Shown: positions 5,903 through 40,325 of the stretch, piece after piece
How the letters are laid out: each line of letters begins with the position of its first letter
Numbering within the stretch: position 1 is the stretch's first letter
Origin: Proteiniborus sp. DW1
GTDB taxonomy: Bacteria > Bacillota > Clostridia > Tissierellales > Proteiniboraceae
Length of the DNA stretch: 54,668 nucleotides
Assembly (NCBI RefSeq): GCF_900095305.1
Contig: NZ_FMDO01000021.1
Location: forward strand, 1-54,668
Reading direction: 5' to 3'
Notes under the pieces: generated by a model
The model's input: only the letters and a program-made list of their open reading frames with translations
The model's database searches: none
Told to the model about the DNA's origin: nothing
Position numbers and translations under genes: made by a program

Positions 5903-5953
5903 CAAATTTATATGAGCTATAGAGAACAAGTAAATTTGTGTTGTGAGACTGCG
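5903..5953 (+). repeat. Dispersed intergenic repeat, module B only
   Basis: CAAATTTATATGAGC at the left and AAATTTGTG then TTGTGAGACTGCG at the right match module B of the complete copies at 19.8 and 40.2 kb. The CAAATTTA and TAAATTTG arms can pair. It starts at the end of the pdaB terminator T-run. Module A is absent. Confidence 0.7.
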
Positions 5954-6295: not shown

Positions 6296-7729
6296 ATGAT
6301 GAAAATAGATGGAGTAGATATTACAGGTGTTACATGTGATTCTAGTAAAGTAAAAAAGGGTTTTGCATTTGTTGCAATAAAGGGAATAAGAAAGGATGGT
6401 AATCAATATATAAATGATGTTATAAAAAGAGGAGCAAGTATTATTTATACTGAAGATGATATCAAAAGTGATCTTATACCTGTAATTAAAGTACAAAATT
6501 CAAGAAAGAAATTAGCTGAGCTTTTAGATATGTACTATGATTATCCATCCAAAAAGCTAATATTGGTTGGTATAACTGGCACAAATGGCAAAACTACTAC
6601 ATCTTATATTTTGGATCATATACTCAAAAGTACAGGCATTAAAACAGGAGTTATAGGCACTCTAGGTATAAAAATTGGAGAAAGGCATATACCTACAAAC
6701 TTAACAACCCCAGAGCCAGAGGTTTTATTTTACCAACTAAAAGAAATGGTAAAAGAAGATGTTCAAGTAGCCATTATAGAAGTGTCGTCACATGGGCTTA
6801 AACTAGAAAGAGTATATGGATTAGATTTTGATATGGCTATACATACTAATATTGGATATGATCATGTGAACTTTCATAAAACCAAGACAGACTATATAAA
6901 ATCAAAAAAAATACTTTTTGATTCCTTAAAGAAAAATGGAATTTCCATAATTAATATAGATGATAAAGATGGTTTAAAGCTTATAGAAGGTAATACAAAC
7001 ACCTTAGTAGTTTCATATGGTTTAAATCCTAAATCTAGTATTACAGCATCAAGCTTAATGTTCCAAGACACCATAAGCTTTAATCTATGTATTCAGAGAG
7101 GATTGACTTCTCTAAACAGTTTAGAAGTAGAGCCTATGGAAATTCCAATATCTATGAAATTACTTGGTAGGCACAATGTATATAATTCCTTAGCAGCTAT
7201 TTGTGGAGCACTATGTATCGGTATAGAGCCTCATGTGATAGCAAAATTATTAAGCAATTTTACTGGAGTAGATAGAAGGCTTAGTTTAATATACAATAAA
7301 GACTATTTAATAATTGATGATTTCTGTCATAATCCCCAAGGATATGAGGTCATTTTCGAAACTATCCAATCACTGAATTTTAATAGGTTAATTATAGTCA
7401 ATTCTATAAGAGGTAATCGTGGAGTACAAATAAATAGAAAGAATGCTAAGGTTTTAGGGTCATGGTGTAACACTATGAATAATATGAGACTAATCTTGAC
7501 GCTTAGTAAAGACACAACAGGTGTAGCGGATAAGGTAAAAAAATCAGAGGTTTTAGCTTATAGGAGTATATTAGATAATATAGGGGTGGAATATACAATA
7601 AATGATAATTTAAAAGATGCACTTATAGAAGCATTAAAAATAGCAGAGAAAAACGACTTAATATTATTGCTTGGAGCTCAAGGTATGGATCAAGGTAAAG
7701 AGATAATAAAAAATATACTGGGTATCTAA
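6296..7729 (+). CDS. MurE-like Mur ligase with altered C-terminal domain
   Basis: A 477-residue ATP-dependent ligase of the Mur superfamily. The central domain is MurE-like: P-loop GITGTNGKTTT (93-103), TTPEP (137-141), VSSHGL (163-168), HTNIGYDHVNFH, the YIKSKKILF carbamoyl-lysine region, and GRHNVYNSLAA. The C-terminal domain departs from MurE. DDFCHNPQGYE replaces the usual DYAHTPD, the region around 369-384 reads NSIRGNRGVQINRKNA, and no DNPR diaminopimelate motif is seen. It may ligate a different amino acid or act on a non-peptidoglycan substrate, as cyanophycin- or polyglutamate-type ligases do. It is monocistronic, with no other mur genes nearby. Confidence 0.8.
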   Translation: MMKIDGVDITGVTCDSSKVKKGFAFVAIKGIRKDGNQYINDVIKRGASIIYTEDDIKSDLIPVIKVQNSRKKLAELLDMYYDYPSKKLILVGITGTNGKTTTSYILDHILKSTGIKTGVIGTLGIKIGERHIPTNLTTPEPEVLFYQLKEMVKEDVQVAIIEVSSHGLKLERVYGLDFDMAIHTNIGYDHVNFHKTKTDYIKSKKILFDSLKKNGISIINIDDKDGLKLIEGNTNTLVVSYGLNPKSSITASSLMFQDTISFNLCIQRGLTSLNSLEVEPMEIPISMKLLGRHNVYNSLAAICGALCIGIEPHVIAKLLSNFTGVDRRLSLIYNKDYLIIDDFCHNPQGYEVIFETIQSLNFNRLIIVNSIRGNRGVQINRKNAKVLGSWCNTMNNMRLILTLSKDTTGVADKVKKSEVLAYRSILDNIGVEYTINDNLKDALIEALKIAEKNDLILLLGAQGMDQGKEIIKNILGI

Positions 7730-7759
7730 AAAACTTATTCTTTTAAGAATAAGTTTTTT
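7728..7759 (+). terminator. Intrinsic terminator of the MurE-like gene
   Basis: AAAAAACTTATTC (7728-7740) pairs perfectly with GAATAAGTTTTTT (7747-7759) around a TTTTAA loop. Confidence 0.9.
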
Positions 7760-7800
7760 ATGTGAGGGAAATGAGTAGATAAATTTGTGTGGCGAAGTGG
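7760..7800 (+). repeat. Degenerate repeat module B after a terminator
   Basis: ATGTGAGGGAAATGAG followed by ATAAATTTGTGTGGCGAAG aligns with the ATGTGAGCGATAGCGAG ... ATAAATTTGTGATGCGAGA part of module B, roughly three quarters identical by eye. It begins at the last base of the terminator T-run. The rest of 7800-7973 is AT-rich with no visible gene. Confidence 0.5.
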
Positions 7801-17638: not shown

Positions 17639-17718
17639 TTAATTTTATTGTTGGAAGCAGTTAGTTATCCTGTAAGGATTTCAAGTTGTCTATCCAACGA
17701 ACTATAGCAAGTTATAGG

Positions 17719-17791
17719 TAGGTCATTCACACACAATGAGTACCAAGTTTATGCGAGTGTAATGGGTAAATAAATTGGTGTTGTGAAACTG
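17719..17791 (+). repeat. Diverged repeat copy inside the tRNA cluster
   Basis: TAGGTAGGTC, then ACAATGAGTACCAAGTTTATG, GTAAATAAATTGGTGTTG and TGAAACTG align in order with the end of module A and all of module B. Module A's left half is not recognisable. It lies between tRNA-Gly and tRNA-Cys, on the same strand. Confidence 0.6.
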
Positions 17792-17804
17792 ATTGAACTT
17801 AATC

Positions 17805-19713: not shown

Positions 19714-19735
19714 CTTTGAAAGGATGGCTTTTTTT
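19693..19735 (+). terminator. Intrinsic terminator of ytxC
   Basis: CATCCTTTCAAAG (19693-19705) pairs perfectly with CTTTGAAAGGATG (19714-19726), followed by GC and seven T. The repeat array starts two bases after the T-run. Confidence 0.92.
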
Positions 19736-19737
19736 AT

Positions 19738-19859
19738 GACCTAACCCGATTTCCCGAATGTATTTTTCGGGAAATCGCTGGTAGGTCAAACGCAACGAGC
19801 TCCAAATTTATGTGAGCGATAGCGAGCAAATAAATTTGTGATGCGAGACTGCGGCAAAT
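19738..19859 (+). repeat. Dispersed intergenic repeat, complete copy 1 (A+B)
   Basis: Module A (19738-19787): GACCTA and TAGGTC ends enclose CGATTTCCCGAA (19747-19758) paired with TTCGGGAAATCG (19766-19777). Module B (19803-19853): CAAATTTAT, GAGCGATAGCGAGC, AAATAAATTTG, then GCGAGACTGCG. It is followed without a gap by copy 2, giving a 122-base unit. There is no coding frame of credible length. Confidence 0.85.
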
Positions 19860-19980
19860 GACCTAACCCGATTTCCCGAATGTATTTTTCGGGAAATCGC
19901 TGGTAGGTCAAATGCACCAAACACCAAATTTGAACGACCGGAGGGAGTAAGCAAATTTGCGTTTCGGGACTGCGAAGTAT
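19860..19980 (+). repeat. Dispersed intergenic repeat, complete copy 2 (A+B)
   Basis: Module A (19860-19909) is identical to copy 1. Module B (19925-19976) has diverged inside (GAACGACCGGAGGGAG in place of GAGCGATAGCGAG) but keeps CAAATTTG ... CAAATTTG arms and the CGGGACTGCG end. It fills most of the gap before the DUF445 gene. Confidence 0.85.
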
Positions 19981-26921: not shown

Positions 26922-26937
26922 TAAATTAATATCTAAA

Positions 26938-27171
26938 AGTGATGATAGAGAAAGTATGTATTTAAAAACTTTGAGAGAGGAAGTGTCGTAGGCTGAAAGC
27001 ACTTCTATGTTTGAAAATACAGAAGTTCACTCTTGAACTGCTAGGTTGAAATAGTAGTAGACTTATGCCGGTTTTTTTACCGTTAACATAATGAGTGATT
27101 TGATGAACAATCAAATTATTAGGGTGGTACCACGGAAAGCCTTCGTCCCTTTGTGACGGAGGCTTTATTTT
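26938..27171 (+). promoter_or_regulatory. T-box riboswitch, Phe specifier (UUC), for pheST
   Basis: Stem I carries AAAGTA on its 5' side and GAAG-TTC-A on its 3' side, with the specifier UUC (Phe) at 27026-27028. The T-box sequence AGGGTGGTACCACGG is at 27121-27135. It is followed by the terminator AAAGCCTTCGTC (27136-27147) with GACGGAGGCTTT (27155-27166) and a T-run. Uncharged tRNA-Phe would stabilise the antiterminator and switch on pheS-pheT. Confidence 0.93.
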
Positions 27172-27174
27172 TAT

Positions 27175-27256
27175 GACCTAATCCGATTTATGACCTAACC
27201 CGATTTTCCGAGTGTTCTGTCATCTGAGCGTTAGCGAAGAATCTCGCATTTTGTGA
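27175..27256 (+). repeat. Truncated repeat copies after the Phe T-box terminator
   Basis: Two consecutive starts of module A: GACCTAATCCGATTTAT (27175-27191) and GACCTAACCCGATTTTCC (27192-27209). A different stretch follows, CTGTCATCTGAGCG-TTAGCGAAGAATCTCGC, of the 'CTGAGCG..GCGAAG' kind seen as a common intergenic motif in many bacteria. It begins four bases after the terminator T-run. Confidence 0.7.
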
Positions 27257-27288
27257 GGATTTGATTGCATTAGAAGGAGGGAGTTTAA

Positions 27289-31023: not shown

Positions 31024-31049
31024 AAAAAGAGCAGGCAACTGCTCTTTTT
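31024..31049 (+). terminator. Intrinsic terminator of pheST
   Basis: AAAAAGAGCAG (31024-31034) pairs with CTGCTCTTTTT (31039-31049). A repeat copy starts two bases later. Confidence 0.92.
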
Positions 31050-31051
31050 AT

Positions 31052-31164
31052 GACCTAACCCGATTTCCCGAATGTTTTTTTGGGAAATCGATGGTAGGTC
31101 AATCAGAGTGAGCACCAAATCTATTGAGGGAAGCCAAGTAAATAAATTTGTGTTGTGAGACTGC
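31052..31164 (+). repeat. Dispersed intergenic repeat, complete copy 3 (A+B)
   Basis: Module A (31052-31100): GACCTA/TAGGTC ends with CGATTTCCC (31061-31069) paired to GGGAAATCG (31082-31090). Module B (31115-31164): CAAATCTATTGAGGGAAGCC, then AAATAAATTTGTGTTGTGAGACTGC. The stretch 31165-31271 shows no further structure. Confidence 0.85.
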
Positions 31165-31271
31165 TCTATGCAAATAATTGAATTTTCAAAATAATAAAAA
31201 AATAGAGGAAAAAAGATATCTATAGAGAATTAATATTTAAGAATAAAAAATTATATTTAAGGGGGGCTTTT

Positions 31272-39916: not shown

Positions 39917-40155
39917 TAAATAAATGAAATTCTAGGATGAGGAAAGTAGGTTATACTGATTGTTATAGCGAGTCAGGTTGGTGGGAGCTGACACATAGGT
40001 ATATCTGAAGAGAGCCTCGGAGGAGCTATCTGAACTTAAGTAGGATATGCCGCTCCCCTGCGTTAAAGGGCTTGAGTGGGTATACTTATCTATACCAATT
40101 AGAGTGGTAACACGGGATCATATCTCGTCTCTTTCATTAGAGACGGGATTTTTTT
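39917..40155 (+). promoter_or_regulatory. T-box riboswitch, Arg specifier (AGA), for argS
   Basis: The 5' side has GGATGAGGAAAGTAGG. The 3' side of the specifier loop reads TGAAG-AGA-G, with AGA (Arg) at 40011-40013 in the same GAAG-NNN context as the Phe T-box. The T-box sequence AGAGTGGTAACACGGG is at 40101-40116, a variant of the consensus. Terminator ATCTCGTCTCT (40122-40132) pairs with AGAGACGGGAT (40139-40149), then T7. It controls argS by tRNA-Arg charging. Confidence 0.92.
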
Positions 40156-40157
40156 AT

Positions 40158-40325
40158 GACCTAACCCGATTGTTTCGGACGCTTTTCCGAAAGAATCGTT
40201 GGTAGGTCAAACGCAATGAGCATCAAATTCATGTGAGCGACAGCGAGCAAATGAATTTGTGTTGCGAGACTGCGGAAAATGACCTAACCCAACCTATCAT
40301 CCTGAACGAAGTGAAGGAACTCGTA
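40158..40325 (+). repeat. Dispersed intergenic repeat, copy 4 (A+B) plus truncated A
   Basis: Module A (40158-40208): same ends, but the inner stem is CGATTGTTTCGGA (40167-40179) with TCCGAAAGAATCG (40186-40198), a changed sequence with pairing kept apart from one G/G mismatch. Module B (40224-40274): CAAATTCATGTGAGCGACAG, then GAGCAAATGAATTTG and GCGAGACTGCGG, where both arms changed together (ATTC/GAAT). Then a new GACCTAACCC (40281-40290) leads into CATCCTGAACGAAGTGAAGG. It starts two bases after the Arg T-box T-run. Confidence 0.85.

Follow-up and report, generated by a model that had tools for sequence, protein, structure and literature searches.

A short structured repeat family in Proteiniborus begins at terminators and at the ends of RNA genes

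REP sequences and REPINs are short, palindromic, non-coding repeats that lie between genes in many copies, with GTAG at the 5' foot of the palindrome and an arrangement in inverted pairs. PATEs, which derive from IS200/IS605 elements, carry hairpins near their ends and cause no target duplication, and IS200/IS605 derivatives have a fixed short target sequence at their left end. MITEs, BOX, RUP and SPRITE elements are described as non-autonomous structured repeats in the accessible part of one source (PMC10969869), and the accessible text of a survey of REP sequences (PMC3733652) makes no mention of terminator, Clostridi or Firmicutes. Group IIC introns, according to the accessible portions of two papers, insert immediately behind rho-independent terminators (PMC8919778) and recognise a DNA stem-loop (PMC10190682).

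The repeat family analysed here, called A-B, was found in a contig of 54,668 nt from Proteiniborus sp. DW1 (GCF_900095305.1, NZ_FMDO01000021.1), which as a whole is referred to as the window. An A-B unit is about 120 nt long and starts at its 5' end with TTATGACC; it consists of a module A (TGACCTAACCCGATT...AATCGATGGTAGGTCA), which forms a hairpin, and a module B, a second hairpin with the end GAGACTGCG. Units occur in head-to-tail tandem arrays or as cut-short copies, and their 3' end varies: a unit may stop with B, with a GGAAAA link or in a restart of A. The motif TTATG is present twice in the element, at the start and within B. The copies in the window and the T-boxes that precede two of them are listed below; the names ytxC, pheST, pdaB, MurE-like and argS are putative and are those of the first-pass annotation.

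about 5903..5953, plus strand: B-only copy at the terminator T-run of putative pdaB; in G002, a congener, an A piece lies on the same T-run
about 7758..7799, plus strand: B-only copy at the terminator of a putative MurE-like gene, adjoining the T-run
17691..17800, plus strand: degenerate A-B copy in the spacer behind tRNA-Gly (GGTAGGTCA...ATGAGTACCAAGTTTATGCGAGTG...GTGTTGTGAAACTG); ends approximate, placed by eye
19734..19974, plus strand: A-B array of two units after TTA, with TGACC at 19737 and 19859, adjoining the terminator T-run behind putative ytxC
26933..27153, plus strand: T-box leader (Rfam RF00230) upstream of the second docked site
27171..27216, plus strand: two cut-short A pieces on the T-box terminator, with TGACC at 27174 and 27191
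31048..31165, plus strand: single A-B unit on the terminator behind putative pheST, with TGACC at 31051
39925..40135, plus strand: T-box leader (Rfam RF00230) upstream of an ORF read as Arg-related
40149..40155, plus strand: terminator T-run of the T-box at 39925..40135, whose last two T double as the TT of TTATGACC
40154..40290, plus strand: A-B unit on that T-run, with TGACC at 40157, followed by an 11-nt restart of A (TGACCTAACCC at 40280)

The first-pass annotation had placed all four A-led arrays and two B-only copies at terminator T-runs, and both observations hold. The four arrays begin TTATGACCTAACCCGATT (the first piece of the second array being TGACCTAATCC), in all of them TTA precedes TGACC and merges into the T-run of the terminator, and the two B-only copies adjoin their T-runs directly. 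In G002 the T-run behind putative ytxC is also filled, by an array with other stems; the orthologue of the 27171..27216 site is filled as well, that of the 40154..40290 site is filled with differing stems, and the putative pheST site is unoccupied, the terminator there running on as CTCTTTTTCCTATTAG. The A piece that G002 carries on the pdaB-site T-run makes it more likely that B-only copies are remnants, and they are probably not a separate class; a deletion between the TTATG repeats is a possible origin of the copy at 7758..7799. Rfam matches in the window are limited to two T-boxes, one L20 leader and three tRNAs, so that no described structured RNA family matches the A-B copies there. A search of the open literature, with most subscription journals outside its coverage, turned up no account of the family. 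At 27217-27260 and 40291-40325 of the window, the A pieces are directly followed by fragments of another repeat (CTGAGCGTTAGCGAAGAATC, CATCCTGAACGAAGTGAAGGA).

Like REP sequences and REPINs, A-B is short, palindromic, non-coding, intergenic and present in many copies. Unlike them, its arrays run head to tail and GTAG lies in the 3' arm of A, and no repeat-flanked Y1 (RAYT) locus was found for it in the genome G000. With PATEs it shares hairpins near the ends and the absence of target duplication, but its left tetranucleotide is not fixed (TTTT, ACCA, CCGA and CGGG, with TTA counted as element). As an apparently non-autonomous structured repeat it resembles MITEs, BOX, RUP and SPRITE elements, from which it differs in docking at RNA ends and in that no target duplication was seen.

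In G000 (3.12 Mb, 62 contigs) there are 57 A starts at no more than two mismatches, compared to 1 for the reversed pattern. Eleven genomes were sampled. The stretches fetched from G000 and its two congeners, G001 and G002, yielded 157 copies: 119 heads, 36 inner copies and 2 copies too close to a contig edge. Four heads, all under the score cut-off, were dropped by hand (two antisense reads of the palindromic A, one chance match and one missed inner copy), which leaves 115. With a fixed score, applied in the sense direction only, a terminator hairpin and T-run read into the copy in 80 of these 115 heads (80 of 119 before dropping), and about five further heads have, by eye, a longer-loop terminator or a score just under the cut-off, for a total of about 85 of 115. 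Among 2500 sampled intergenic sites of each kind, a terminator was found at 6.7% for TTTTA, 5.2% for TTTA and 1.5% for ATTA; the binomial probability of 80/115 against the 6.7% background is about 4e-66. Inner tandem copies stand at terminators in only 1 of 36 cases. TTA lies immediately 5' of TGACC in 111 of the 115 heads (T in 114, T in 113 and A in 113, position by position), the four exceptions having been picked out from the copy listings of G000-G002. Four heads lie behind tRNA genes, five in a repeat that we call D and two on antisense 5S, and about 19 of the 115 have no recognisable fold or RNA end. The copies are nearly all in non-coding DNA, with 7 of 115 heads inside a called ORF. 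A fraction of shared sites (48/67) was discarded as biased, only stretches containing copies having been fetched. Twelve exact 15-mer matches in viral contigs were judged to be chance, none standing behind a T-run in the flanks inspected.

Docking at terminators is confirmed and is wider than first seen. In most copies the 5' end adjoins, in sense, the base at which a terminator or RNA gene stops. As far as sense scoring reaches, it is not the case in the genus that most copies lie off terminators or antisense to them; the targets also take in tRNA 3' ends, 5S ends, the flanks of 23S and 16S genes and the D repeat. In the tRNA arrays of the genus, copies begin right behind CCA at Val, Asp and Thr and 2 nt later at Lys; a fifth tRNA copy, in G211, is also behind CCA, and CCA is directly followed by TTA in 4 of the 5 cases. 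One tRNA cluster of G000 has short spacers instead (TTAAT behind Lys, TTATACTGC... behind Val, TTTTAAAG... behind Asp). Units are present in G002 behind Lys and Val, in G001 behind Asp and in a second G002 cluster behind Thr, and element-free orthologous spacers were seen for Lys, Val and Asp and not for Thr. In G001 a copy adjoins the 5' boundary of a 5S gene on its antisense strand (5S from 7008 to 6892, minus strand; TTA at 7009-7011). The two antisense-5S heads probably go back to a single event, with copying from one rRNA operon to another, and that single event could be a coincidence.

The D repeat is some 220-230 nt long (right end by eye), has no ORF that we could see and no Rfam match, and also occurs in internally deleted copies; its places include G000:C44:141423-141745 (L056), C31, C4, C52:2585-2786 and G002:1537948. 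An A-B unit sits at one fixed internal position in some D copies. A run of Rfam on D-containing forms gave no more than one T-box and one sub-threshold match lying away from the repeat. Five element-free D repeats go on from CCGA directly into AA..., and five carry the element; in the best preserved of these (C31) CCGA is followed by TTATGACC...GACTGCT and then by AACCGAGAG, and the other four differ slightly, are degenerate on the right or have a right side that was not placed. The filled and empty D forms indicate a simple insertion with neither duplication nor loss, in which TTA belongs to the element. A reading of A as the end of an ORF was rejected: GATTA followed by TGA mimics a stop in four copies, but upstream that frame contains many stops and consists of the D repeat. 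Two further modules were seen. Module E (GCTCAGAAANCAAGTTTCTGAGTACTACAATTACACCAAATC...) substitutes part of A with the outer stem kept and also stands alone between 16S and 23S rRNA (G002 L122:3847, L123, L133, L143; G000 L042, L056). Module F (TTTATGATAGGAGTGTCCGTTAGGACC) lies inside B units of G002, and a similar form is found in tRNA-array spacers (G002 L119, L146). The spacers behind tRNA-Asp in L146 and L174 hold degenerate tRNA-like sequences with an extra hairpin.

Across the order, TATGACCTAACCCGATT occurs at no more than one mismatch in 48 of 249 genomes, and contigs with TTTTATGACCTAACCCGATT include those of Tissierella pigra and Tissierella sp. Forty copies from three other families were chosen by hand among the matches listed, for room on both sides and without looking at hairpins; the counts from this set come without a background rate, and copies in rRNA operons or at orthologous T-boxes are not independent events. 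Eleven of the 40 lie 18-51 nt behind a same-strand T-box match (two of these T-boxes are just under the gathering score) and 15 lie in rRNA operons. Among the latter, 4 have a 5S match that ends 0-1 nt before TGACC, 3 stand at 25 nt behind 23S and 8 are upstream of 16S on the same strand, one of them by sequence likeness only. The remaining copies of the set are 1 after a tRNA, 7 at other terminators with 1 more that is doubtful, and 5 elsewhere; one of these five, a sense copy at about 728 of L225, lies within a sub-threshold cobalamin riboswitch match, behind a small hairpin. In the genus, our own matching of the copy and T-box lists gives 11 docked T-boxes out of 67. A rough comparison with terminator totals, which are estimates scaled up from a sample, gives a P of about 5e-6, or about 0.01 with orthologous sites collapsed. 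The common denominator of these sites is the end of a folded RNA gene and not a T-tract.

The copies had also been described as lying always in the orientation of the upstream gene. This is so for the four arrays in the window, but genome-wide there is no excess over adjacent ORF pairs: 85 of 106 heads share their strand with the closest ORF upstream, compared to 891 of 1098 adjacent ORF pairs that lie on a common strand. The orientation signal relates to the terminator or RNA gene and not to the ORF. Eleven copies stand behind T-boxes of the genus in sense orientation; a single copy on the other strand (C44:141628 of G000, in a D repeat) lies downstream at no more than 300 nt. A target in single-stranded DNA of the lagging strand would predict an excess on the leading strand. 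With respect to replication, terminators of G002 point with the fork in 22 of 23 docked cases (strict score) compared to 67 of 112 undocked hairpin-plus-T sites (P=0.0005); for gene-end terminators alone the figures are 13 of 14 and 52 of 71 (P=0.17), and the leading strand holds 47 of 54 heads of G002 and 452 of 538 ORFs. A bias for the lagging-strand template was set aside as significant against the loose baseline only and, given P=0.17 against gene-end terminators, we claim no strand effect beyond that of the terminators.

A comparison of G000-G002 shows that filled and unoccupied orthologous sites both exist. Target duplication was absent from the D pair and from every filled/empty pair that could be placed, and there was little or no loss; on the right, several pairs show differences of a few bases, and in others divergence prevents the placement of that side. 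At C29:33359 of G000, which is not a terminator site, the filled sequence is TACTTTTATGACC...GGGAAAAGTATG and that of the empty congener TACTTTTTAGGGTATG, with a few bases exchanged. The precise 5' end and the variable 3' end resemble one-ended or single-strand insertion and do not fit a DDE transposase. There are 22 orthologous site pairs filled in two species. Among the 15 of them with a full A, identity of the variable core is 0.765, compared to 0.784 among non-orthologous copies, and sites thus persist or are re-hit and their content gets replaced.

The hairpins were assessed in an alignment of 49 units (47 from G000-G002 and two from related contigs) under a structure drawn by hand from the consensus, with apical stems left out. 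Of the cells in this alignment 95.7% pair, and pairing falls to 24-40% once the partners are slid. Both sides change in 13 of 32 pairs, where shuffles have a mean of 6.6 and 0 of 500 reach as high; the count of further pair types, a weak measure, is barely raised (28 vs 25.6 shuffled; 45 of 500 shuffles). Template switching during replication can also keep hairpins perfect, as stated in the accessible part of PMC8794818, and covariation alone is thus no proof of function. Stems are often common to the tandem units of one array. At C51:11788 and C55:44070 of G000 the A copies are near-perfect palindromes with the 3' arm GGGTTAGGTCA and look as though one arm was a copy of its partner. The apical loops of B of the GAGC/GAGT type are GNYA (GATA, GACA, GTTA, GCTA) in 41 of 55 cases and GNRA in 0 of 55 by our own sort, the rest being triloops or loops that do not start with G. 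GNYA loops differ from the usual RNA tetraloops, and DNA would be expected to be more tolerant than RNA of loops of this type; a literature search on that tolerance returned nothing usable.

Candidate enzymes were compared with the distribution of the element over the 249 genomes. Of the 48 genomes with the element 35 have a Y1 transposase, and of the 201 without it 123 do (P=0.14); for RF02001 introns, which we take to be class C group II introns, the corresponding numbers are 16 and 64 (P=0.86). G001 has no Y1 match, yet carries 22 copies, and the six Y1 loci of G000 have no A start at two mismatches or fewer; short BLAST matches of these loci do not fall on A-B copies when positions are compared by eye. 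We rejected RAYT/Y1 as the cognate transposase on the absence of A starts at the Y1 loci, the absence of Y1 from G001 and the co-occurrence, and the RF02001 intron as a partner on its co-occurrence. In G002 an RF02001 intron was not detected under stricter filters, and another group II intron and reverse transcriptase genes are present there; reverse transcriptases other than the RF02001 type were searched for in three genomes. Two RF02001-type introns of the genus begin, by eye, right behind hairpins (L178, L183), and L183 has a CRISPR repeat match near its intron. With group IIC introns A-B shares sense insertion directly behind a terminator stem-loop, in the sense-scored heads counted above. 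It differs in that it has no ribozyme match in the window at the gathering threshold, the introns of the genus being separate loci; in that about 120 nt is too short for a reverse transcriptase, whose genes lie elsewhere; and in that it starts with TTATGACC rather than GTGYG and is uncoupled from the introns in its presence.

How A-B comes to lie at these sites can be read in several ways. The suggestion that T-tract or hairpin DNA is chosen as a target stands as far as target choice is concerned, which is backed by filled and empty orthologous sites, the lack of target duplication, the fixed 5' end and the excess of terminators in the genus, and the 40 copies from other families lie at sites of a similar kind; a T-tract is insufficient, as tRNA CCA ends, 5S and D have no T-run. 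Recognition of a hairpin or folded strand would fit better than recognition of a T-tract and would cover the antisense-5S copy too. Our preferred reading, which we hold tentatively and rate somewhat short of an even chance, is that A-B is a non-autonomous mobile family whose fixed 5' end is joined to the end point of a folded RNA gene or of a terminator, through recognition of folded DNA. The element would move in single-stranded form, and the machinery of integration would recognise a stem with a short 3' tail in a folded DNA strand, much as group IIC introns recognise stem-loops at terminators; such a form would be offered by terminators, tRNAs, 5S and the antisense strand of 5S. Arrays, cut-short copies and B-only copies would then arise by tandem duplication and by deletion between repeats. 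Against this reading count the lack of co-occurrence with Y1 transposases or RF02001 introns, the roughly 19 heads where no fold or RNA end is recognisable, the strand excess that is not significant against gene-end terminators, the right-side differences of several filled/empty pairs and the barely raised number of further pair types. A wider version, possible and somewhat doubtful, is that the process reads the RNA end itself, by a machinery that accepts every folded strand ending in a free 3' tail, or by a reverse transcriptase that joins to the 3' ends of T-box leaders, tRNAs and 5S. Random insertion with survival only behind terminators and RNA genes, followed by homogenisation through gene conversion, would account for the stems common within arrays and for the nearly complete restriction to non-coding DNA. 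We regard it as improbable, as the 5' junction falls on the exact base of the RNA end (CCA/TTA in 4 of the 5 tRNA copies, 0-1 nt at 5S, the end of the T-run), and terminator-free intergenic TTTTA sites are about 14 times commoner, yet hold a minority of the copies.

Two further readings give RNA the leading part. A reverse transcriptase copying element RNA may switch from the 5' end of the element to the 3' end of another RNA (a U-run, tRNA CCA or 5S), after which the chimeric cDNA would recombine into the gene of that RNA. Such capture predicts sense orientation, exact abutment to 3' ends whatever their sequence and an excess at abundant short RNAs, and the T-box sites of the genus and of the other families, as well as the adjoined tRNA CCA and 5S ends, agree with it. 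The antisense-5S copy has no obvious RNA 3' end, however, nor has a G002 copy at 3623227, which by eye is antisense to a ribosome-binding-site-like sequence, or one at 538343, by eye behind an antisense 5S-like fragment; insertion inside the D repeat and the uncoupling of RF02001 introns from the element also speak against capture, which we consider quite unlikely. The choice between DNA folding and RNA capture rests mainly on the one antisense-5S copy, which mildly favours the former since a folded antisense strand would end there and no RNA end is expected; the T-box and tRNA sites are equally compatible with DNA folding, RNA capture and a role in RNA. In such a role the hairpins of A and B would work within transcripts that read through or are processed, and selection would keep them at RNA 3' ends as a stabiliser, a processing site or a second-tier regulator at T-boxes. 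The covarying hairpins (compatible with the mobile-element view too), the orthologous sites filled in two species and the many T-box and rRNA-operon sites in two clades point in this direction, but copies at orthologous sites resemble each other no better than unrelated copies do, some copies are reduced to short A pieces or to B-only remnants, some orthologous sites stand empty, and the loops are GNYA and not GNRA; we judge these roles, taken jointly, to be unlikely.

If either form of the wider version is true, A-B would be a mobile element for which the ends of RNA genes serve as a general address independent of sequence. The documented case that we found of terminators used in this way is that of group II introns of class C and near types, and a non-coding family of 120 nt at terminators, tRNA and 5S would widen this idea to RNA-gene ends as insertion address. 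The 157 mapped copies are available for learning the recognition rule, in which a safe-harbour principle of insertion may possibly be found. Copies docked at T-boxes become leader sequence in the read-through mRNA of the regulated gene, which raises the question of their part in its regulation.
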